Shown piece by piece: positions 32,732 to 52,570 of a stretch of DNA of 64,000 bases (the first letter of the stretch is position 1; each line of letters starts with the position of its first letter). The notes below the pieces were generated by a model, which ran no database searches, had not been told where the DNA came from, and was given only the letters and a program-made list of their open reading frames with translations. The position numbers and the translations under genes are program-made. The stretch covers positions 1-64,000 of the forward strand of contig SVFH01000004.1 in assembly GCA_015056945.1 (NCBI GenBank). The letters run 5' to 3'. The DNA is from Lachnospiraceae bacterium (GTDB taxonomy: Bacteria > Bacillota > Clostridia > Lachnospirales > Lachnospiraceae).

Positions 32732-32974
32732 ATCACAGCGGGGTAAGCAGAGGTTACGTCCGGCAGACCGGCTTGAAATATAAGAGCCTCTAACTGTTTC
32801 GCGGATATTTAGAGAGAACGGACGCAAACGCTCCAAACGGGACATCCGTGTCCCGTTGGACCTTCCGCCAACATCGTGTTGTCGGCTTGCTGTCTATGAA
32901 GCGAAACATCAAGAGCCTCTAATATTCCTACACAAAGGTCTGCCGGACGTAACCTCTGCTTACCCCGCTGTGAT
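32732..32974. repeat. 243-bp element bounded by a perfect 38-bp inverted repeat
   Basis: Bases 32732-32769 and 32937-32974 are exact reverse complements (ATCACAGCGGGGTAAG... on the left). The 167-bp interior has a 9-bp hairpin with a TCCG loop (AACGGGACA/TGTCCCGTT, near 32836-32858) and two copies of AAGAGCCTCTAA. There is no frame worth calling. Perfect long arms suggest a recently moved non-autonomous element (MITE) or a strongly folding RNA. With its flanking hairpins it explains most of the 530-bp gap before the galactokinase gene. Confidence 0.7.
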
Positions 32975-42534: not shown

Positions 42535-43644
42535 ATGAAGGTAATGAGTGTATTTGGAACAAGACCGGAGGCAATTAAGATGTGTCCGCTTGTGAAGGAA
42601 CTGGAAAAAAATTCCGAAATTGAGAGTATTGTCTGTCTGACAGGACAACATAAGGAAATGCTTTATCAGGTAATAGACATCTTTGGAACAAAGGTTGACT
42701 ATGATTTGGAAATTATGCGTCCGAAGCAGACTTTGACAACAATTACGACATCTGTTTTGGAACGCATGGAAGAAGTCCTTCAGAAGGAGAAGCCGGACAT
42801 TGTTCTGGTGCATGGAGATACTTCAACTTCTTTTGTTGCGGCGCTGGCATGTTTCTATCAGCAGATTCCTGTCGGACATGTTGAGGCGGGCTTAAGAACG
42901 TTTGATAAGTGGTCACCGTTCCCGGAAGAAATGAACAGAAGTCTTACTTGCCGCATTGCTGATTTACACTTCGCACCGACAGAGAATAATAGAAATAATC
43001 TCTATAACGAGAATGTTAAGGATGGCGTTTATGTGACCGGTAATACGGTAATTGATGCCTTCCGGACAACGGTAAAAGAAGGTTATGTATATAAAGACAG
43101 TGATTTGGCTGCGATAGACTTCAACGGCAAAAGGTGTGTGCTTATGACAGCGCATCGTCGTGAAAATTTGGGAGAGCCGCTTGAAAATATTTGTCGTAGC
43201 GTGAAACGTCTTGCGGAAGAATATCCTGATTTGGAAGTGGTTTATCCGGTACATATGAATCCGCTTGTACGTGAGACTGCAGAAAAGATTCTTGGAAATC
43301 AGGCTAATGTGCATCTGATTCAGCCACTTGATGTGGAGGATATGCACAATCTCATGGCACGCAGTTTCCTTGTAATGACCGACTCCGGAGGCTTACAGGA
43401 AGAAGCGCCCGCATGCGGTGTTCCTGTACTTGTACTTCGTACAGAAACAGAGCGTCCTGAGGCAGTAGAAGCCGGAACCGTGAAAGTAGTCGGTGTTGAT
43501 GAAGAAGTGATTTACAGGAACGCGGTAGAATTGCTGGAGAATAAGGATGCTTATGAGAAGATGGCAAAAGCCGTGAATCCCTACGGCGACGGACATGCCA
43601 GTGAGCGAATTGCTCAAATTCTTCTTGACTGGGCCAAAGCCTAA
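42535..43644 (+). CDS. wecB: UDP-N-acetylglucosamine 2-epimerase (non-hydrolysing)
   Basis: This 369-residue cytoplasmic enzyme has FGTRPEAIKMCPLV at its start, CLTGQHKEML, VHGDTSTSF, GHVEAGLRT, TAHRRENLG and MTDSGGLQEEAP, which define the WecB/MnaA family. It interconverts UDP-GlcNAc and UDP-ManNAc for wall or capsule polymers. A second, clearly homologous copy begins at 63154 in the capsule locus. This copy lies 71 bases after the CotH gene and may belong to that operon or be separate. Its stop codon is followed almost at once by the first 92-bp repeat array. Confidence 0.92.
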   Translation: MKVMSVFGTRPEAIKMCPLVKELEKNSEIESIVCLTGQHKEMLYQVIDIFGTKVDYDLEIMRPKQTLTTITTSVLERMEEVLQKEKPDIVLVHGDTSTSFVAALACFYQQIPVGHVEAGLRTFDKWSPFPEEMNRSLTCRIADLHFAPTENNRNNLYNENVKDGVYVTGNTVIDAFRTTVKEGYVYKDSDLAAIDFNGKRCVLMTAHRRENLGEPLENICRSVKRLAEEYPDLEVVYPVHMNPLVRETAEKILGNQANVHLIQPLDVEDMHNLMARSFLVMTDSGGLQEEAPACGVPVLVLRTETERPEAVEAGTVKVVGVDEEVIYRNAVELLENKDAYEKMAKAVNPYGDGHASERIAQILLDWAKA

Positions 43645-43649
43645 GTTTA

Positions 43650-44440
43650 AGGGCGCCGGGAGGTGCCGGGGGATTCTTTGAAATGAGGGGAGCCGCCGGG
43701 GGGTTCTTTGAAATGAGGGGAGTTGCCGGGGGATTCTTTGAAATTAGGGGAGTTGCCGGGGGAATTCTTTGAAATTAGGGGGATACGCCGGGGAAATGGG
43801 CTCTAAATAGAAGAAATTTCTGTATAGATACGGCTGAGCTGAGGAAATCTTGGAAATTAATTGAAATTCAAGGAAGTCGCCGGGGGAATGGGCTCTAAAT
43901 AGAAGAAATTCTTATATAGATACGCCTGGCAAGAGGAAATCTTGGAAATTAATTGAAATTCAAGGGAGCCGCCGGGGAAATGGGCTCTAAATTGAAGAAA
44001 TTTCTGTATAGATACGGCTGAGCTGAGGAAATCTTGGAAATTAGAGGAAAATGCCTGGGGATTCTTTGAAATGAGGGGGAAGTCGCCGGGGGAATGGGCT
44101 CTGAAATTAGGTAAATGGGCTCTAAATGAAGAAAATTTTTGTATAGATACGGCTGGGCTGGAGAAACTCCGGAAATTAATTGAAATTCAAGGAAGTCGCC
44201 GGGGAAATGGGCTCTAAATAGAAGAAATTTCTGTATAGATACGGCTGAGCTGGAGAAACTCCGGAAATTAATTGAAATTCAAGGAAGTCGCCGGGGGAAT
44301 GGGCTCTAAATTGAAGAAATTCTTATATAGATACGCCTGGCAAGAGGAAATCTTGGAAATTAGAGGAAAATGCCTGGAAATTCTTTGAAATGAAAGGAAA
44401 TTAATTGAAACGTGAGGCCTTCGGAAATTAACTGAAATGA
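43650..44440 (+). repeat. Tandem repeat array 1 (92-bp unit, ~7 copies, plus 31-bp sub-units)
   Basis: A non-coding tandem array fills the gap after wecB. The anchor AATGGGCTCT occurs at 43795, 43887, 43979, 44093, 44114 (partial copy), 44206 and 44298; where regular, the spacing is exactly 92. Each unit reads roughly: GGAAATTAATTGAAATTC, AAGGAAGTCGCCGGGG, AAATGGGCTCTAAATAGAAG, AAATTTCTGTATAGATACG, then CTGAGCTGAGGAAATCTT. The first 150 bases are instead shorter ~31-bp units (TTCTTTGAAATGAGGGG plus AGTTGCCGGGG). 92 is not a multiple of 3, so it is not a coding repeat. A second array with the same unit and orientation is at 50188-51260. Confidence 0.9.
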
Positions 44441-44483
44441 ACAGAGAAAGGAGAATATCCGCTTTGTTGAAAGTCGGATACAA

Positions 44484-45464
44484 GTGAATGATATGGGCAT
44501 TAAATGGGGTGTATTGGGTACTGCAAATGTTGCTGACTGGGGTGTGATTCCGGGAATGTTGCAGGCAAAGGAATGTGAATTGTATGCAATTGCAGGAAGA
44601 TATGAGGAAAAGGTTAACGCTTATAAGGAAAAGTTCGGATTCAAGAAAGGGTATGTCGGATATGACAAACTTCTTGCGGATTCTGATGTGCAGGCAGTGT
44701 ATATTCCGCTGCCGAACAACTTGCATAAAGAGTGGGTTGTCAAAGCTTTAAAGGCCGGAAAACATGTTCTTTGTGAGAAACCGTTAGCCTTGAATGCTGC
44801 GGAGGCTGAAGAAATGTATCAGGTTGCGAAAGAGAATCAAGTGATTCTTGCTGAAGCGTATGCATACCTTCACAGTCCGTATATTAAAGCGCTCCGCAAG
44901 GAAATCCAAGAAGGCGTAATCGGAGATGTCATTTATCTTGAAACTGCTTTTATCACACAAGGTTATGAAGAGGATATCAGACTTTACAAAGAGCTTGGCG
45001 GCGGTGCAATGTATGACCTTGGTTGTTATTGCACAACCATGATCGGGACACTTGTGGATGGGGATACAGAATATGTCAAAGCTACAATGGAAGCAAATGA
45101 GCATGGCGTAGATTTGTTTACTGCAGGCCTGATTAAATTCAAGAATGGCGCACGAGCATCTTTTAATGTCGGTATGATGCTGGGCACAGATACCAACGCG
45201 CGTTTTGACCGCTTGTATGTACACGGAACGAAAGGAATTATCCGTTCAGATGTTGAATATAATCAGGCAGGAGATTTGTCCTATACCATAACCGTGAACG
45301 GCGAAACAATCACCAAAACGCAACAGGCGAGAAATAACTACGCACTTGAAATTGAGCAAATGAATCGTGCAATTATCGGCGAAGAGGAAATTTACATTAC
45401 ACCGGAATTCTCGATTAGAAATGCTAAAATGATTGATGCGGCACTCGCATCCATGGGATATTAA
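44484..45464 (+). CDS. Gfo/Idh/MocA-family NAD(P)-dependent oxidoreductase
   Basis: This 326-residue dehydrogenase has an N-terminal Rossmann fold (IKWGVLGTANVAD, about 5-17, where GxGxxG is changed to GTANVA), VYIPLPNNLHKEW, the cofactor/catalytic motif EKPLAL (about 98-103), and GGGAMYDLGCY near 173-183 with the downstream Tyr/Cys region. Such enzymes oxidise or reduce sugars and inositols. The substrate is not clear. The start may be GTG 44484 (CGGA 6 bases upstream) or ATG 44493; a good GGAG at 44449 is too far from both. It is enclosed between repeat array 1 and a bidirectional terminator. Confidence 0.8.
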   Translation: MNDMGIKWGVLGTANVADWGVIPGMLQAKECELYAIAGRYEEKVNAYKEKFGFKKGYVGYDKLLADSDVQAVYIPLPNNLHKEWVVKALKAGKHVLCEKPLALNAAEAEEMYQVAKENQVILAEAYAYLHSPYIKALRKEIQEGVIGDVIYLETAFITQGYEEDIRLYKELGGGAMYDLGCYCTTMIGTLVDGDTEYVKATMEANEHGVDLFTAGLIKFKNGARASFNVGMMLGTDTNARFDRLYVHGTKGIIRSDVEYNQAGDLSYTITVNGETITKTQQARNNYALEIEQMNRAIIGEEEIYITPEFSIRNAKMIDAALASMGY

Positions 45465-45474
45465 TTGAAAAATC

Positions 45475-45522
45475 AGGGTGTCAAAATACAGTACCGAAAT
45501 GTGTTTTGACCACCCTTTTTTT
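45475..45522. terminator. Bidirectional terminator between convergent genes
   Basis: AGGGTG-TCAAAA pairs with TTTTGA-CCACCCT with a one-base bulge, followed by seven Ts. It begins 10 bases after one stop codon and reaches the stop codon of the convergent gene at 45521. Confidence 0.8.
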
Positions 45523-46297
45523 AGGTAAAAAAATGTTTGATATACATTTCTACGGTTTCCGGGTTGAGAGGTTCTTTTTGCGTTTCAAAGGTGGTGATAA
45601 GCCTGATTCCGGGCGTGATGCCGTTGCTGGCATAGAGATTGATTTTGGAAGAAGTTTTGTTAATGTAAGACTGAACATCCATCAGACCAAAGTGTTCCCA
45701 GTAAAAGTATTCGCCGGTTTTAGGATGACGGATTGTGAAATCGGGATAGATTATGATGTTATCCAATGTTAACTCGCATTCGTAGCGAAAGGGGATTTGA
45801 TAATGGCAAAGCATCATGTCAATCAGTACTTCGGATTTGGAGCGTAGAAGGTGGTTCGAAACCCCTTTGTGGATTAAATTTTCAGGGTACAAGGGGCATT
45901 TGTTGTATGGTTGTGTCATCCATTCAATTAATTCTTTGTCGGTTGGTTTGAGGTATGGGGCAAGAAGTTTGCGGTACCCGTCTGAATCATCAAGAAGTGT
46001 ATTTGCTTTGTCAAGCAGGGAATGGTGTTGCAGATAAAGAGCAAGATCGTGTTTTTCCTTTTTCAGGCCGCCCAGTAAAAGTAAAATATATTTTTTACGA
46101 GCCAGTTGTTCTGCAAGTGTTTGATTGGTTTTTGGAATGTAAAATTTTTGATGGTCAATGCTGTTATACCATTTGACATGATGCTGCTGATGTGAGCAAA
46201 TTAATTTGCCGGGCGGAAGATTGCGTAGTTCCTCTTCCAGGGAAGAAATGCGGTTAGATATGTTTTCGTAGTCCCGCCTTATTCGTTCATAATTCAT
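45521..46297 (-). CDS. PD-(D/E)xK-like nuclease-fold protein
   Basis: This 258-residue soluble protein has a coiled-coil-like N-terminus (about 1-30 and 60-115) and a C-terminal part that resembles a restriction-endonuclease fold. RSKSEVLIDMML (about 151-162, candidate first Glu) is followed by a strand with YPDFTI (about 184-189, the Asp), and YFYWEHFGLMD (about 198-208, Glu-x-Phe in place of Glu-x-Lys). That order (E, PDF, ExF/K) matches PD-(D/E)xK proteins, though the last Lys is lost. It could be a nuclease or a dead relative. The gene is alone on its strand, preceded by three 23-bp direct repeats at 46361-46429 and an AAAGGAG site. The family call rests on motif reading only. Confidence 0.5.
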   Translation of the reverse strand: MNYERIRRDYENISNRISSLEEELRNLPPGKLICSHQQHHVKWYNSIDHQKFYIPKTNQTLAEQLARKKYILLLLGGLKKEKHDLALYLQHHSLLDKANTLLDDSDGYRKLLAPYLKPTDKELIEWMTQPYNKCPLYPENLIHKGVSNHLLRSKSEVLIDMMLCHYQIPFRYECELTLDNIIIYPDFTIRHPKTGEYFYWEHFGLMDVQSYINKTSSKINLYASNGITPGIRLITTFETQKEPLNPETVEMYIKHFFT

Positions 46298-46360
46298 GTA
46301 AGTCTCCTTTCGATAAAGTGATATTATTAAAACATATCATTCCTATAAAATCAAGTAAAA

Positions 46361-46429
46361 GAATAAAATACGGATAAATAAAAGTATAAAATACGGATAA
46401 ATAAAAGCATAAAATACAGACGAATAAAA
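46361..46429. repeat. Three 23-bp direct repeats upstream of the nuclease-like gene
   Basis: Three head-to-tail copies start at 46361, 46384 and 46407; the core is ATAAAATACGGATAAATAAA, with the third copy changed at three positions. A partial fourth copy may precede them. They lie 64-132 bases upstream of the minus-strand start codon at 46297, where they could act as iteron-like regulator sites. Confidence 0.75.
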
Positions 46430-46450
46430 GAATAGCAAAGCAGAAACTAA

Positions 46451-46478
46451 AAAAGCGCAACCGAAGTTGCGCTTTTTT
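46451..46478. terminator. Terminator of the DUF3048 gene
   Basis: A perfect 11-bp stem AAAAGCGCAAC/GTTGCGCTTTT with a CGAA tetraloop, T-rich on both strands. It lies just beyond the minus-strand stop codon at 46492. Confidence 0.85.
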
Positions 46479-46491
46479 GTGAGAAAATCTT

Positions 46492-47616
46492 TTATTTCAA
46501 TACCAGTTCGCTCCATCTCTTGGTAGAAACAAAGCCGATATAAGTTTTACCGGTGTTGAGTTCGATTTCGTTGCCGTCCGCGTCGTAGTAGCGAGTCGGG
46601 TCAGTGTCCATGCCTTTTTTCCATGTGATGGGGATGGCATGTCCGCCGGTGATGTAGTAGCCTTTGCCGCTCTGGTTAAGGATGTTGAACATCATGTAAC
46701 CATTCTCGTCAAACTGTTCGCATTTCGCGGACTGGAGGATGACATTGGTGAAAGCAAGCTGCTTGTTGTCATTCTCGGGGTCAACGTGTGCCTTGCCGTA
46801 TTCGTAGTAAAGATACTTGCCGCTTTCCTTGTCGTATTCAAGTTCGGAACCATTGTGCGGAAACGGAAGGTCTACGAGGGAGCAGGCCTGTGCGTCAGAT
46901 TTGGCTTGCAAATTGGTAGGCGCGCTGTCGTCTGCAAATTTGAAATGCTCACCCTTGTAGTAAGAGTTATATTCTTTGTCAATGTTTGCGGCTTTGATTC
47001 TTTTCTCAATTTCGCCTGTGGTTACATATTCGGTAAACTCACGGGATTTGCCGTTGTCAATACGGGCGAAACCGCCGCTTAAGTTGTCCACCCAGGGGTT
47101 TCCGAGATAATCATTGATGTAAAAAGGACCGCCGTCGTGAATCAGGATTGCGTTGTATTCCGGTGCGAGCATGAAGTTCGTCGGACGTGTACTTCTGATG
47201 CTGCCGAAACGTGTGATTTTTTCCCAATCTTTTACAACTGCCATGAAACGTGTGATTTCACCGTTTGCGGTACTGTTCATGACTTCATAAACAATATCGG
47301 CCTGTGTAAGTCCGTAGTGATCAAGTGCTGTTTTTTCGTTGTCTACCATGATGGCAACCGGACGCTGGTCCTGGATGGATTTGTCAATCCATTCATTTGT
47401 GAGCTCGCTACGATACATATTTTCCGGATCAATGACAACTTCTTCAGAAGTATCAACAGCAGCTGTTTCGGAATCGTCCTGCGTGAGCTCGTCCCAGGAA
47501 TAAGAGGTTTCCTCTGAGGTAGCAGGAGAACTTGTTTCTTCTGCGCCGCCGCAACCTGCCATTGCCGTGCAAAGCATGAGCGAAGACAGAAGAACTGCAA
47601 ACAATTTTTTCTTCAT
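46492..47616 (-). CDS. DUF3048 (YerB-like) lipoprotein
   Basis: This 374-residue lipoprotein has lipobox MAGC (Cys at 22) and an acidic Ser/Thr/Glu linker to about residue 65. The DUF3048 domain follows, with RPVAIMVDNEKTALDHYGL, ADIVYEVMNSTANGEITR, SIRSTRPTNFML and ILIHDGGP in the first half, and a beta-rich second half with a GKTYIGFVS end. B. subtilis YerB belongs to this family; its function is not established to my knowledge. It should sit on the outer membrane face. The gene has its own terminator, and AAAGGAAT lies before the start. Confidence 0.88.
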   Translation of the reverse strand: MKKKLFAVLLSSLMLCTAMAGCGGAEETSSPATSEETSYSWDELTQDDSETAAVDTSEEVVIDPENMYRSELTNEWIDKSIQDQRPVAIMVDNEKTALDHYGLTQADIVYEVMNSTANGEITRFMAVVKDWEKITRFGSIRSTRPTNFMLAPEYNAILIHDGGPFYINDYLGNPWVDNLSGGFARIDNGKSREFTEYVTTGEIEKRIKAANIDKEYNSYYKGEHFKFADDSAPTNLQAKSDAQACSLVDLPFPHNGSELEYDKESGKYLYYEYGKAHVDPENDNKQLAFTNVILQSAKCEQFDENGYMMFNILNQSGKGYYITGGHAIPITWKKGMDTDPTRYYDADGNEIELNTGKTYIGFVSTKRWSELVLK

Positions 47617-47807
47617 GTAAAGAATTCCTTTCTTTGATAAAATTCGATACTAGTTTACTACAACTCAGGTGTGATATGCAAGACGGAAAATTTGGTATTT
47701 GTAAAAATAGCTCAATGTGATGCGATATTTGATTATATAAAAGGTTAATAATCCAATGCGAATTTCATAAAAATCTTTGTCGTAGTGCGACGCAAGAAGT
47801 TTTTGGG

Positions 47808-48560
47808 CTAGGAAATGCGGTCCGGTTTCTTGCGGTAGGTGCCCGGCGAAAAGCCTGCGTTGGCGCGAAACTGCCGACAGAAATGCTCTGTGTTGCGATA
47901 GCCGCAAAGCTCTGCGATTTCCGAAATGCTCAATGTGGTGTAGGTCAGGTAGTCCTTGGCCTTCTGAATCCGGAACGCAATCACGTCCTCCATGCAGGAA
48001 ATGTCGAACTGTTGCTTGTAAAGGGACTGCAGATAGCCGCTGCTCATATGAAGTTCTTCGGCCATGCGTGCCACGTTCCAGTCGTCGCCCGGGTTCGTGG
48101 AAATCTGTCTGCGCAGGGCGAGCAGCTCGTGGTCGTGCGCGGAAACCTGACCGGTAGAAAGCTCGTCGTGAAGTTTATTGAATAAAACTCGTATAAGCTG
48201 TGCAATCAAATCCGGCGACTGTTCCCATGTTAAAAGCTGAAAAAGTCTTCTGATATACTCGGGGTCAGAGATGGTAAAAGGAATGCCCTGCAGCGGGAAG
48301 TGCGTCACGAAGGACTCCTCGCATGAAAACTGCATCCAATGATTACCGTAGGTTTCTTCCGACGCGCCGTACCAGATTTTACGTCCCGGCGGATAAAGGA
48401 TTGCGCTGTACGCCGGATATTCCGCTACTTCACCATCGATATAAAAAAGAGCCGGCGTGGTCGTCACAACAATAATATAGTTGTGAAAACCTTCCGGAAT
48501 ATCGTATCGGAAGTTGCTTTGGTGTACGGCGTCATAGCCGATGGAGTCGATTTGATTCAT
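47808..48560 (-). CDS. AraC-family transcriptional regulator
   Basis: This 250-residue regulator has an N-terminal cupin-like sensing domain (about 15-105, with YIIVVTTTPALFYIDG and ILYPPGRKIWYG) and a C-terminal pair of helix-turn-helix motifs (about 150-250: WNVARMAEELHMSSGYLQSLYK, given in part as ARMAEELHMS, then ISEIAELCGYRNTEHFCRQF and GFSPGTYRK). AraC proteins of this form usually sense sugars. It is divergent from the MATE gene; the 268-bp gap holds GTGCCAAA at 48598 and its complement TTTGGCAC at 48696, which could be half-sites. ATG 48560 is preferred over an upstream GTG because AGGTG fits it better. Confidence 0.85.
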   Translation of the reverse strand: MNQIDSIGYDAVHQSNFRYDIPEGFHNYIIVVTTTPALFYIDGEVAEYPAYSAILYPPGRKIWYGASEETYGNHWMQFSCEESFVTHFPLQGIPFTISDPEYIRRLFQLLTWEQSPDLIAQLIRVLFNKLHDELSTGQVSAHDHELLALRRQISTNPGDDWNVARMAEELHMSSGYLQSLYKQQFDISCMEDVIAFRIQKAKDYLTYTTLSISEIAELCGYRNTEHFCRQFRANAGFSPGTYRKKPDRIS

Positions 48561-48828
48561 TGTTAACACCTGCCTTGTTTACTGAATATGAATTAGGGTG
48601 CCAAAACATTTCTTTTGTTCAAGCGAATTCCCGATAAAAGAAAAGACACTCCGCGAGAGAACACTTTGTTCTTGGATTTGACGGATTGTTGTGTGTTTGG
48701 CACTTTCACAATATGAGAATAAATCAATTTTATATTAGTATTGTTCATTGAAAAGGAATTGTCAATAGAGTATGCTTGCGGTACGGTACTGAAAACAAAA
48801 TATTATAATTTATCAAAGGGTGAGAACG

Positions 48829-50187
48829 ATGGAGTCTAAAATGATGAATATGACAACGGGAAGTCCCGTTCGCCTTTTATTAGTATTTTCCATACCGATG
48901 TTAATCGGAAATGTATTTCAGCAGTTATATAATCTGGTCGATTCCATGATTGTCGGGCAATTTGTGGGGGAGGATGCGTTGGCGGCAATCGGTGCGACGA
49001 ATTCCGTGGGCTTTCTGTTTTTTGCAATGTGTAACGGCCTTGGAAGCGGCGGCGGTATTCTGACGGCGAAAGAATTTGGCGCCGGGAATGAAGAAAATGT
49101 GAAAAAAACAATTGTGAATTCAGGATATATTTTACTGTTTGGCTCTGTGATTATGGGCGTGTTGGCAGCACTTGTTTCCGAGCCGGTGCTTTCCTTTATG
49201 AATACGCCGGAGCATATTATGCACGACGCGCTGATTTATATGTACATGCAGTGTATCGGGCTGCCGCTGGTGGCGATTTATAATCATTCGTCATCTATGC
49301 TGCGTGCGTTGGGAGATTCGAGAACGCCGTTGTATTTCCTGATTTTTGCAGCACTTCTGAATGTCGGGTTGGATCTTTGGTTTGTATGCGGATTTGAATG
49401 GGGCGTTTTTGGTGCGGCTCTGGCAACAGGTATTGCCCAGGTGATCGCCGGAATCGGTTGTCTTCTCTATGCAATTAAGTTTAATCCGTATTTTAAAATG
49501 AGTCGCAGACATTTCAGACTTGAGGGCGGCATTCTTTGGGAGTGTGTGCGTCTTGGTGTGCCGCTTTCGGTGCAGTTTTCCATGATTGCGGTTTCGTGTA
49601 TGGCTTTGCAACGCGTGGTAAACGGTTACGGTTCTGCCGTAATGGCTGCGTTTACGGCAACGAGCAGGGTTGAGCAGCTTCTGCATCAGCCGTATCAGAC
49701 CTTGAGTGCGGCGCTTTCAACTTATTCAGGTCAGAATCTCGGCGCCAAGGAGCATGAGCGTATCCGCCTTGGCTTCCGCAAAAGTATGCTTATGATGGGA
49801 ATTTTCTCACTTGTGATGTTGCCGGTAATGCAGTTTGGCGGCGCGGCAATTATCAAGATGTTTGTAGATGACGCGGTTGTTATTGATTACGGCGCTAAAG
49901 CTATGCAGATTACAAGCTGGTTCTACATAACGCTTGGCACTATCTATATGACAAGAGGTGTCTTAAACGGAATCGGCGATGCGGCTTTTGCATTAATTAA
50001 CGGTATTGTGGAAGTTGTCGGCCGCATCGTTGTGCCGGTTGCGCTTACCATGATTCCCTTCATCGGTGTCTGGGGCATCTGGTGGTCGACAGGAATTGTG
50101 TGGCTTATCAGTGCTCTGTTCTGTTACTTGCGCTATGTATCCTGGGGAAAGAAGCTGAAGGAAAACATGGATGCCGTGGAAGTGTGA
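48829..50187 (+). CDS. MATE-family efflux transporter
   Basis: This 452-residue protein has the twelve-helix MATE layout. It begins MMNMTTGSPVRLLLVFSIP and IGNVFQQLYNLVDSMIVGQFVG (written here in pieces under the limit: GNVFQQLYNLVDSMIVGQ), with AIGATNS in helix 2 and RALGDSRTPLY in the loop after helix 4. The second half repeats the pattern (ALQRVVNGYGSAVMAAF, GQNLGAKEHERIRLG, RGVLNGIGDAAF). MATE proteins export cations or drugs using Na+ or H+. AAAGGGTG precedes ATG 48829. The divergent AraC gene is a candidate regulator. The stop codon is directly followed by repeat array 2. Confidence 0.9.
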   Translation: MESKMMNMTTGSPVRLLLVFSIPMLIGNVFQQLYNLVDSMIVGQFVGEDALAAIGATNSVGFLFFAMCNGLGSGGGILTAKEFGAGNEENVKKTIVNSGYILLFGSVIMGVLAALVSEPVLSFMNTPEHIMHDALIYMYMQCIGLPLVAIYNHSSSMLRALGDSRTPLYFLIFAALLNVGLDLWFVCGFEWGVFGAALATGIAQVIAGIGCLLYAIKFNPYFKMSRRHFRLEGGILWECVRLGVPLSVQFSMIAVSCMALQRVVNGYGSAVMAAFTATSRVEQLLHQPYQTLSAALSTYSGQNLGAKEHERIRLGFRKSMLMMGIFSLVMLPVMQFGGAAIIKMFVDDAVVIDYGAKAMQITSWFYITLGTIYMTRGVLNGIGDAAFALINGIVEVVGRIVVPVALTMIPFIGVWGIWWSTGIVWLISALFCYLRYVSWGKKLKENMDAVEV

Positions 50188-51260
50188 AATGAGTGGATTT
50201 GCGGGGGGAATTAATTGAAATGAGTGGATTTGCCGGGGGGATTAATTGAAATTCAAGGAAGTCGCCGGGGAAATGGGCTCTAAATAGAGAAAATTCTTGT
50301 ATAGATACGCCTGGGCTGAGGAAATCTTGGAAATTAATTGAAATGAGGGGATTTGCGGGGGAAATTCTTTGAAATTCAAGGAAGTCGCGGGGGGGAATGG
50401 GCTCTAAATTGAGAAAATTCTTGTATAGATACGCCTGGGCAGGAGAAACTCCGGAAATTAATTGAAATTCAAGGAAGTCGCTTGGGAAATGGGCTCTAAA
50501 TAGAAGAAATTTCTTGTATAGATACGCCTGGGCTGAGGAAATCCCGGAAATTAATTGAAATTCAGGGAAGTCGCCGGGGAAATGGGCTCTAAATTGAGAA
50601 AATTCTTGTATAGATACGCCTGGGCTGAGGAAATCTTGGAAATTAATTGAAATTCAGGGAAGTCGCCGGGGGAATGGGCTCTAAATAGAAGAAATTTCTG
50701 TATAGATACGCCTGGGCCGAGAAAATCTTGGAAATTAATTGAAATTCAAGGAAGTTGCCGGGGAAATGGGCTCTAAATAGAGAAAATTCTTGTATAGATA
50801 CGCCTGGGCTGGAGAAATCCCGGAAATTAATTGAAATTCAAGGGAGTCGCGGGGGAAATGGGCTCTAAATAGAAGAAATTTCTGTATAGATACGCCTGGG
50901 CTGAGGAAATCCCGGAAATTAATTGAAATGAGGGGATTTGCTGGGGAAATTCTTTGGAATTCAAGGAAGTCGCCGGGGAAATGGGCTCTAAATAGAGAAA
51001 ATTCTTGTATAGATACGCCTGGGCCGGAGAAACTCCGGAAATTAATTGAAATTCAAGGAAGTCGCCGGGGGAATGGGCTCTAAATAGAAGAAATTTCTGT
51101 ATAGATACGCCTGGACTGAGGCCCCCCCGGAAATTAATTGAAAAGCAGGAGAAAACCCCGGAAATTAATTGAAATGAGTGGATTTGCCAGAGCTCCCCGG
51201 CAATTAATCGAAATGAGTGGATTTGCCGGAGAAACTCCCGGAAATTAATTGAAACACGGG
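50188..51260 (+). repeat. Tandem repeat array 2 (92/93-bp unit, 9 copies, plus 31-bp sub-units)
   Basis: This is the same non-coding repeat as at 43650-44440, in the same orientation. The anchor AATGGGCTCT occurs at 50272, 50396, 50488, 50581, 50673, 50765, 50857, 50980 and 51072. Spacings are 92 or 93, except two of 123-124 where one extra ~31-bp sub-unit (TTGAAATGAGTGGATTTGC type) is inserted. Most units here read GATACGCCTGGGCTGAGG where array 1 has mainly GATACGGCTGAGCTGAGG. Each unit holds a small palindrome around AGAAATTTCT or its variants. Shorter degenerate units trail off at 51130-51260. It ends about 80 bases before the GH10 gene. Confidence 0.92.
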
Positions 51261-51340
51261 AGAACATCGGGAAAAGTATAGTCAAATACAAGGTGAAATA
51301 GTATTATTTAAATATACATAAAAGAGAGAGAGGTATTGGC

Positions 51341-52570
51341 ATGGGTAAATTTGAGAAACTTGCTCATCGTAGAGCAGGAAGAGTAATCAAGGTGGTGGAT
51401 GCTGCGGGAAATCCGGTGGCAGGCAAGAAGCTTCGTTTGCGTCAGACAAATCATGCATTTCTGTTTGGATGCGGTGCGTTTGATATCAATGCGTATTACG
51501 AGTTTGACAAACCTGAGATTAAAAAAATGGCAGGCGAAAGAATGGCTTTGTGGACGGATGTATTCAACTACGGAACACTTCCCTTCTATTGGGGTACGTA
51601 TGAGCCGGAAGAGGGCAATCCGAAGTGGGAGAGCCGCATGAAGGCAGCAGAGTACATGAAGGAGAGAAATATTCAGGTCAAGGGTCATCCGCTTTGCTGG
51701 CATACCGTATGTGCGGACTGGCTTATGAAGTATGATAACGAAACAATTCTTAAGAAGCAGCTTGAAAGAATTGACCGTGATGTAACACAGTTCAAGGGTA
51801 AAATTGATATGTGGGATGTAATCAATGAAGTTGTTATCATGCCTGATTTCGATAAGTATGACAATGCGATTACAAGGATTTGTAAGGAACATGGTCGTGT
51901 GAATCTGATTAAAATGGTTTTTGAGGAAGCGAAAAAGATGAATCCGGATTCCACACTTTTGTTGAATGATTTCAATACTTCCGTGGCGTATGATATTTTA
52001 TTGGAAAGCGCGTTGGCGGCAGGTGCGCCGATTGATGTTATTGGTATCCAGTCCCATCAGCATCAGGGATACTGGGGCGCTGAGAAATTGCATGCAGTGT
52101 TGGATCGTTATTCGCATTTCAAGATGCCGATTCATTTTACTGAGAATACGCTTGTGTCGGGTGAGCTGATTCCGCCTCATATTGTGGATTTGAATGACCA
52201 TCAGGTAGATGTTTGGCCGTCTACACCGGAATTCGAAGAGCGTCAGATGAATGAGTGGGAAGAGATGTATCGCATCCTCTTTGAACATCCGCTTGTGGAA
52301 GCTGTTACCGGATGGGATTTCGCTGACGGAATGTGGTTAAAAGCACCGAGTGGATTCATCCATGAGGATAACACCGTGAAACCTGTTTACAACCGCCTGA
52401 AAGAAATGATTAAGGGCGAGTGGTGGACAGATGAAGAGGTCTGCACTGATGCAAACGGAATCGTGCGTGTCGAAGGTTTCAAGGGTGATTATGTCCTTGC
52501 AGACGGTGATGCCGAGGCGGCTTTCGAGATGAAGGCTGATTCGGATGAAGTACTTCTGCTTACAATATAA
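51341..52570 (+). CDS. Cytoplasmic GH10 endo-beta-1,4-xylanase
   Basis: This 409-residue enzyme has a short beta-rich N-terminus (about 1-40, VIKVVDAAGNPVAGKKLRLR in pieces) and a GH10 barrel: GHPLCWH near 115-121, the acid/base Glu 163 in WDVINEV, LNDFN near 208, GIQSHQH near 235, and the nucleophile Glu 269 in HFTENT. It ends with a short beta-domain (ICTDANGIVRVEGFKGDY in part). There is no signal peptide, so it should act on xylo-oligosaccharides already inside the cell, as in Butyrivibrio and other xylan users. GAGAGAGAGG precedes ATG 51341. Together with the CE1 esterase it fits intracellular xylan breakdown. Confidence 0.88.
   Translation: MGKFEKLAHRRAGRVIKVVDAAGNPVAGKKLRLRQTNHAFLFGCGAFDINAYYEFDKPEIKKMAGERMALWTDVFNYGTLPFYWGTYEPEEGNPKWESRMKAAEYMKERNIQVKGHPLCWHTVCADWLMKYDNETILKKQLERIDRDVTQFKGKIDMWDVINEVVIMPDFDKYDNAITRICKEHGRVNLIKMVFEEAKKMNPDSTLLLNDFNTSVAYDILLESALAAGAPIDVIGIQSHQHQGYWGAEKLHAVLDRYSHFKMPIHFTENTLVSGELIPPHIVDLNDHQVDVWPSTPEFEERQMNEWEEMYRILFEHPLVEAVTGWDFADGMWLKAPSGFIHEDNTVKPVYNRLKEMIKGEWWTDEEVCTDANGIVRVEGFKGDYVLADGDAEAAFEMKADSDEVLLLTI

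Follow-up and report, generated by a model that had tools for sequence, protein, structure and literature searches.

Tandem arrays of a two-box module in a Lachnospiraceae genome, probable minisatellite derivatives of a MITE-like mosaic repeat

According to the available excerpts of their descriptions, BrickBuilt of Porphyromonas gingivalis is a minisatellite inside a miniature inverted-repeat transposable element (MITE) of narrow host range, present at 19 places in one genome (PMC4596501), and BOX of Streptococcus pneumoniae is a mosaic with a tandem module of variable copy number (PMC3049150). A review of prokaryote MITEs mentions, in the part available, terminator-like MITEs (PMC10969869). 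Here, we analyze two tandem arrays in a Lachnospiraceae bacterium (GCA_015056945.1), located in the first 64,000 bases (the window) of the 136,879-bp contig SVFH01000004.1. The genome is a draft of 2.70 Mb in 48 contigs, 88% complete, and its assembly may limit the copy numbers counted; it is the only genome of its species in our comparison set. Loci are named by contig (C4, C8, C13, C14, C22, C26, C34, and C44), the window arrays carrying the label C15. We propose, with a probability of roughly 0.6, that the arrays are minisatellites grown from a MITE-like mosaic repeat which, among the genomes searched, is carried by this species only.

A 33-bp module in tandem arrays and dispersed copies

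An initial annotation of the window described two same-orientation arrays sharing one unit, each starting within bases of a stop codon and ending near the next gene, with five genes between them. Our analysis agrees on all these points. Tandem Repeats Finder (TRF) places array 1 at 43658-44393 (scores up to 961) and array 2 at 50185-51254 (scores up to 886), and a pattern search finds 15 full modules, all on the + strand, six in array 1 and nine in array 2; array 1 also holds a truncated seventh copy. By its TRF bounds, array 1 begins 13 bp past the stop codon (43642-43644) of a UDP-GlcNAc 2-epimerase gene, while array 2 begins within the stop codon of a MATE transporter gene, the TGA at 50185-50187 being part of the first repeat. 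Array 1 extends to a ribosome-binding-like AAAGGAG (44447-44453) that precedes a GFO/IDH/MocA oxidoreductase gene (GFO), and about 80 bp separate the end of array 2 from a GH10 gene. The open reading frame (ORF) list and Pfam confirm five genes between the arrays. The fixed 92-93 bp spacing also claimed holds for 10 of the 13 module-to-module steps but fails for the remaining three (135, 124, and 123 bp), which are filled by extra short sequence. Both arrays consist of head-to-tail copies of a 10-100 bp unit, as minisatellites (variable-number tandem repeats) do. They are G-rich on the + strand (GC skew of 0.42 for array 1 and 0.34 for array 2, against 0.22 for the window), and two minus-strand frames of 152 and 154 aa that overlap them were treated as chance.

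The anchor AATGGGCTCT, by which the arrays had been noticed, is a portion of a longer conserved core of the array units. Each unit contains a 33-bp module made of two boxes, GGCTC and AGATAC, separated by 22 bases. The pattern GGCTCTA-N13-28-ATAGATA has 32 exact matches in the genome and none for the reversed control, and is therefore far beyond chance. These matches form five clusters: 15 lie in the two window arrays, four in C14 (period 92), 11 in C13 (period 82), and two in C34, next to a third copy with an altered second box. Looser patterns add C13:18.4 kb and C26:17.8 kb, and one mismatch adds C8:16.3 kb; these three copies keep 22 bases between GGCTC or GGTTC and AGATAC and differ inside. 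The short pattern with up to two mismatches is at background even in this genome (458 vs 421). The variant GTATC...AG(A/G)TAC occurs at C4, in a tandem array with a 71-bp unit repeated about ten times. Altogether, modules of the same build occupy 11 further intergenic places (13 with the window arrays), which comprise tandem arrays differing in period and linker, single modules, and five elements of about 160 bp.

The 22-base spacing recurs beyond the main arrays. In the fetched sequence of this genome, 14 of 35 occurrences of ATAGATAC have box 1, taken as G[GT][ACT][TC]C, at a distance of exactly 22 bases; the remaining 34 distances in the 10-44 range yield eight in total, and three control octamers give none at 22. 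A CGGG-type box often stands ahead of the modules (13/15 in the window, 7/11 in C13, 1/4 in C14, 1/3 at C13:70 kb, 1/2 in C22, and 0/1 each in C44, C26:89 kb, and C4) and may for this reason belong to the repeat family.

A tandem-repeat survey flagged eight non-coding array groups in 464 kb of this genome and none in 400 kb of the relative G015, the former sample being biased, with the window and 15 of its 20 stretches coming from array-holding contigs; its open-frame flag also labels some intergenic-looking arrays as open (L112, L115, and L128). Spacers hold further short tandem arrays with other units of 31 bp, 53 bp, and, read by eye, roughly 30 bp (L099 9790-10021; L096 8533-8727; L203 1880-1990).

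Linkers behave differently from the core. For every pairing of arrays except the window pair, mean identity is 0.83-0.86 in the 33-bp core and 0.50-0.64 in the linkers (shuffled 0.45, 95th percentile 0.53); within arrays, linkers are 0.87-0.92 identical. One core has therefore been amplified together with largely different flanking DNA at different places. Among the four arrays compared (C15 twice, C14, and C13), only the window pair has common linkers, with a mean identity of 0.88 between the two arrays and 0.88 and 0.89 within them. The two window arrays are therefore one population of units.

Composite elements and the origin of the arrays

A sequence-only model built from 27 modules finds copies at C26:89 kb, C22:120 kb, C44:49.5 kb, and C13:70 kb (best E 3e-6 to 1e-4); in the loci read, model matches adjoined ordinary genes. 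At these four places and at the end of the C4 array we read an element of about 160 bp, laid out as AAAGTATCTATA...GGTTCCACTT, then a central palindrome AAAAGTATCTG...ATAGATACTTTT, then AAGTGGACCT...TATAGATACTTT. It is a nested inverted repeat with imperfect ends of about 40 bp, and the five copies align. If box 1 is read in the relaxed form G[GT]NNC, 12 of their 15 modules have the 22-base spacing, one has 21 and two have 23; the left end reads GGAAC in three of the five. Searched with BLAST, the C22 copy retrieves C4 (E 4.7e-16), C44 (E 1.9e-11), and C26 (E 9.3e-6) in the same genome. The five composites are short, non-coding, and dispersed (C4, C13, C22, C26, and C44), with terminal inverted repeats, as expected of MITEs. 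The window arrays carry one end type only and are thus at most MITE derivatives.

The composites are predicted to fold. Single-copy folding, which covered C22 and C44, gave z -6.35 as RNA and -4.48 as DNA for the former and z -5.0 as RNA for the latter. When the five copies are aligned, 85.4% of cells are paired; slid partners give 36-54%. Six pairs changed on both sides, which lies within the shuffle range (matched by 122/500), and the covariation score lies beyond shuffles (5/500), for five related sequences and a structure derived from the same five.

Since clustered short intergenic palindromic repeats recall bacterial interspersed mosaic elements (BIMEs) in outline, we asked whether the family belongs to a known class, be it repetitive extragenic palindromes (REP) or BIMEs, clustered regularly interspaced short palindromic repeats (CRISPR), or a described RNA family. 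We regard this as very improbable. The Y1 transposase associated with REP elements (RAYT; PF01797) has no match in this incomplete genome, while the same search was positive in 5 of 14 controls. CRISPR spacers are unique, whereas here the linkers are themselves repeats, 0.87-0.92 identical within arrays. Rfam scanning, which covered the window arrays and the C13 locus, gave no match at the gathering level in the window arrays, and sub-threshold matches in array 2 and at C13 look like chance.

In the origin that we favor, the 160-bp element, or its ends, would have spread into spacers at gene 3' ends through a putative transposase. One end and the adjacent flanking DNA would then have been multiplied at several places by slippage or unequal crossing over, which would also keep the copies within an array alike. 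Having their linkers in common, the window arrays would derive from a single amplification that was then copied to another site at a distance of 6 kb, or would be kept alike by conversion. At C13:70 kb, a 58-bp tandem unit consists, by eye, of the first bases of the left end of the element plus flank, and looks like the same process at the other end. The repeats would be mostly neutral, possibly with a side role in transcript 3' ends. Further, and only tentatively, the two-box, 22-base-spaced module could be the site recognized by a transposase or DNA-binding protein not yet described, with ends that prime local tandem amplification of module plus flank, such that satellites with different linkers would be born repeatedly, oriented with transcription, behind the genes of one species.

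The favored origin draws support from the shared core with differing linkers, from the recurring 22-base spacing, and from the alignment, folding, and BLAST matches of the composites; the shortened second repeat at C26:89 kb, the long spacer at C13:29 kb, and the uniform orientation, all given below, also count in its favor. Several observations weigh against it. A profile of the C15, C14, and C13 cores reaches C34 (E 6e-7 and 1e-4) and misses the composites (best 7.9 bits, E 1.6); the presumed link between arrays and composites depends on the intermediates C34, C26, C8, C13:18 kb, and C4, on the fixed spacing, and on a model in which these intermediates are included. The C13:70 kb copy is not among the BLAST matches scored (5 of 24 candidates), and its model match is 23.6 bits. 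The RNAalifold covariation term of the composite is unfavorable (+3.64). C14 and C13 linkers are no closer than shuffled ones (0.50), and those of C15 and C13 are barely closer (0.55-0.56). As to the spacing counts, the definition of box 1 is loose and was set with copies already in view, the model had itself pointed to several of the loci fetched, one of the 14 cases (C34:45.3 kb, outside the 13 places) may be chance, and one of nine ATAGATAC in the G015 sample also has box 1 at 22 bases. No target-site duplication was clear in the flanks read by eye, and the 88% complete genome yielded neither an autonomous element nor a transposase bearing these ends, PF01797 being the only dedicated screen. 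Finally, the orientation bias given below exceeds what neutral, unoriented insertion predicts.

A second dispersed intergenic repeat of about 127-128 bp with a GCATAGGAAATTCCTATGC palindrome (L009 2537-2810; L010 3850-3990; L099 10400-10520; L201 2057-2136) sits directly left of three arrays. It has at least 11 further copies in this genome (80-98% identity) and weak matches in the relatives G015, G001, and G004. At C26:89 kb it stops at the left end of the composite, where its first 83 of 128 bp are present (76% identity, E 3.4e-11) and the remainder was not found.

The search for the unit proposed in the initial annotation yielded the family at 13 places of this genome; relatives gave nothing above background in the searches made. 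The exact pattern had one to three scattered matches in 7 of 60 relatives, and the looser pattern 40 matches in 35 of 244, vs 41 for the reversed control. The 27-module model, under stricter filters, matched at E up to 1 in 49 of 60 (best 19.5 bits vs 59.7 in this genome). With five candidates per genome scored, the composite gave matches of 31-48 bp (E near 7e-4) in 3 of 144 relatives, which we took as AT-rich chance. Viral contigs had no match to the core or the right-end pattern, plasmids none to the composite, and phages none to part of array 2. A broad scan of genome contigs, from which near records of this genome may be missing, returned four single matches in unrelated organisms, also taken as chance. 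In the open-access literature, judged by titles and the start of abstracts, we found no description of the module, although text searching cannot find a sequence motif as such.

At the C13:29 kb locus, a filled site can be set against empty ones. GntR and permease genes are neighbors in all six relatives' loci found, with a spacer of roughly 220-360 bp, and the three of these six spacers whose sequence was read hold no array. In this genome 1,685 bp separate the two genes, a spacer occupied by a 34-bp array, by another dispersed repeat, and by the 82-bp array. The 34-bp array (L010 4061-4393) starts inside the stop codon of the GntR-type gene, as array 2 does in that of the MATE gene.

Gene order, orientation, and possible roles

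The initial annotation had also proposed that recombination between the two arrays could delete or duplicate the 44.4-50.2 kb segment. Such an event would be physically possible because the arrays are in direct orientation and share identity (longest exact match of 60 bp, 81 shared 30-mers). However, the pair forms no special frame, as the same module family lies at 11 other places; nor does the unit lie between most genes, an outcome which the annotation had set as refuting its proposal, since 13 places are not most spacers. No deletion, duplication, or circular joint was seen in the one assembly of the species compared. Gene order in relatives was also compared. GFO orthologues (58-67% identity) are present in 16 of 30 genus relatives, and in G026 only 8 bp separate the adjacent GFO and GH10 orthologues (L218 293-2463), with the four intervening genes and array 2 absent. 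In the present genome (window 44484-51340), four genes and array 2 therefore lie between genes that are neighbors there, and array 2 sits at a synteny breakpoint. This arrangement occurs in 1 of 11 GFO loci examined; the other ten have no GH10 within a flank of about 1.5 kb. Although the synteny break, like the direct orientation and shared stretches, would suit arrays with a present or past role in excising or amplifying the five genes, the breaks in G026 fall at the stop of GFO and the start of GH10 rather than at the arrays. The G026 arrangement is also not the proposed event, because array-to-array recombination would remove GFO as well. We therefore find an excision or amplification device improbable, and nothing observed shows the arrays cutting out the genes between them.

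No other observation points as strongly to a role, or else to oriented insertion, as orientation does, although it does not distinguish the two. At 13 of 13 places the module (in composites, most of the modules) has the direction of the upstream gene, which under random orientation has a probability of about 1 in 8,000. The downstream gene has the same direction at 12 of 13 places, C34 being convergent. Strands were taken from ORF lists, apart from those read from sequence at C13:18.4 kb and C13:70 kb and for the gene that follows C26:17.8 kb. Selection might keep boxes, spacing, and orientation if the modules acted at gene 3' ends as terminators, transcript stabilizers, or protein-binding platforms. 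This is compatible with the conservation of boxes and spacing while the inside of the module varies, and with the central palindrome of the composite, which bears an A-run and a T-run like an intrinsic terminator. On the other hand, single array units fold no better than shuffles (z -0.8 to 1.3 in six of seven stretches), no pair is shared by the 27 modules according to RNAalifold, and 130/500 shuffles match the single compensatory change of the C13 outer stem. Terminator-like sites in 43500-51500 are at background (10 vs 8.1), and termination at array 1 would probably silence GFO, as there is little promoter room between them. On balance, we hold a 3'-end function to be unlikely, and favor the largely neutral minisatellite origin described above.

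An RNA structure of the array unit was dropped as a candidate on the same folding results. Only the short-unit stretch at 43658-43780 folds well (z -3.6), and direct repeats of such make-up may yield that alone. A promoter or sigma-factor reading of the two boxes was considered from their fixed spacing, and the sigma-70 scan of 43500-51500 was at background (14 vs 14.6).

Coordinates of the arrays, their modules, and the surrounding genes are collected in Table 1. In addition, the window contains a 23-bp AT-rich tandem repeat (46356-46434) upstream of the 258-aa gene, and a TwoAYGGAY RNA (Rfam, 99 bits) at 32769-32934 on the minus strand. A look-alike of the start of the 258-aa gene follows, by eye, the composite at C13:70 kb.

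Table 1. Features of the window in and around the two arrays (modules: GGCTC-N22-AGATAC)
Feature	Position	Strand	Basis
UDP-GlcNAc 2-epimerase gene (PF02350), upstream of array 1	42535..43644	+	ORF list, Pfam
Array 1: 30-bp short units, then 92-bp units, one 135 step	43650..44440	+	TRF, step measurement
About four copies of ~30-bp unit, 5' end of array 1	43658..43781	+	TRF
Array 1, module 1	43799..43831	+	pattern search
Array 1, module 2	43891..43923	+	pattern search
Array 1, module 3	43983..44015	+	pattern search
Truncated module copy, AATGGGCTCT start only	44093..44111	+	read from sequence
Array 1, module 4	44118..44150	+	pattern search
Array 1, module 5	44210..44242	+	pattern search
Array 1, module 6	44302..44334	+	pattern search
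GFO/IDH/MocA oxidoreductase gene, directly 3' of array 1	44484..45464	+	ORF list, Pfam
258-aa gene without Pfam match	45521..46297	-	ORF list, Pfam
DUF3048 gene	46492..47616	-	ORF list, Pfam
AraC-type regulator gene	47808..48569	-	ORF list, Pfam
MATE transporter gene, upstream of array 2	48820..50187	+	ORF list, Pfam
Array 2: 92-bp units, 31-bp subunits interspersed, start inside MATE stop codon	50188..51260	+	TRF, step measurement
Array 2, module 1	50276..50308	+	pattern search
Array 2, module 2	50400..50432	+	pattern search
Array 2, module 3; sole one of 15 with 23, not 22, bases between boxes	50492..50525	+	pattern search
Array 2, module 4	50585..50617	+	pattern search
Array 2, module 5	50677..50709	+	pattern search
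Array 2, module 6	50769..50801	+	pattern search
Array 2, module 7	50861..50893	+	pattern search
Array 2, module 8	50984..51016	+	pattern search
Array 2, module 9	51076..51108	+	pattern search
GH10 gene, downstream of array 2	51341..52570	+	ORF list, Pfam

Comparison with described repeats

One genome here displays lone modules, composite inverted-repeat elements, and tandem arrays made from one module with different linkers. It could serve as a test bed for the birth of bacterial minisatellites from the termini of small mobile elements, and for the question of why these elements settle behind genes in one orientation. It also cautions against taking every pair of direct arrays around a group of genes for an excision device.

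With REP, BIME, and REPIN elements, as the available excerpts present them (PMC2817692, PMC3116915), the family shares clustered, short, intergenic palindromic units; it differs in that no Y1 transposase gene was found and that the modules of each array all point in one direction. SPRITE of S. pneumoniae, in the excerpt available, is likewise a terminator-like repeat near gene 3' ends (PMC3049150), whereas here the A-run and T-run occur in the central palindrome of the composite and in the C4 array but not in the window arrays.

As far as the accessible parts of these reports go, the closest known relatives in kind are BrickBuilt and BOX. BOX is also a modular mosaic with a tandem array and predicted folding, variable copy number being reported for BOX itself (PMC3049150). 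The module described here differs in having two boxes 22 bases apart and in also building the inverted ends of the composite; boxA, boxB, and boxC were compared by description. Like our repeat, BrickBuilt is an intergenic minisatellite of narrow host range with inverted-repeat ends, and variable copy number is again a property of BrickBuilt (PMC4596501). In the excerpt available, however, its 23-nt repeat is spacerless and present at all places, with a leader and a tail at many (PMC4596501). No leader or tail was seen at the window arrays, and the arrays of the present family, with periods of 92, 92, 82, and 71 bp, set differing linkers around one module.

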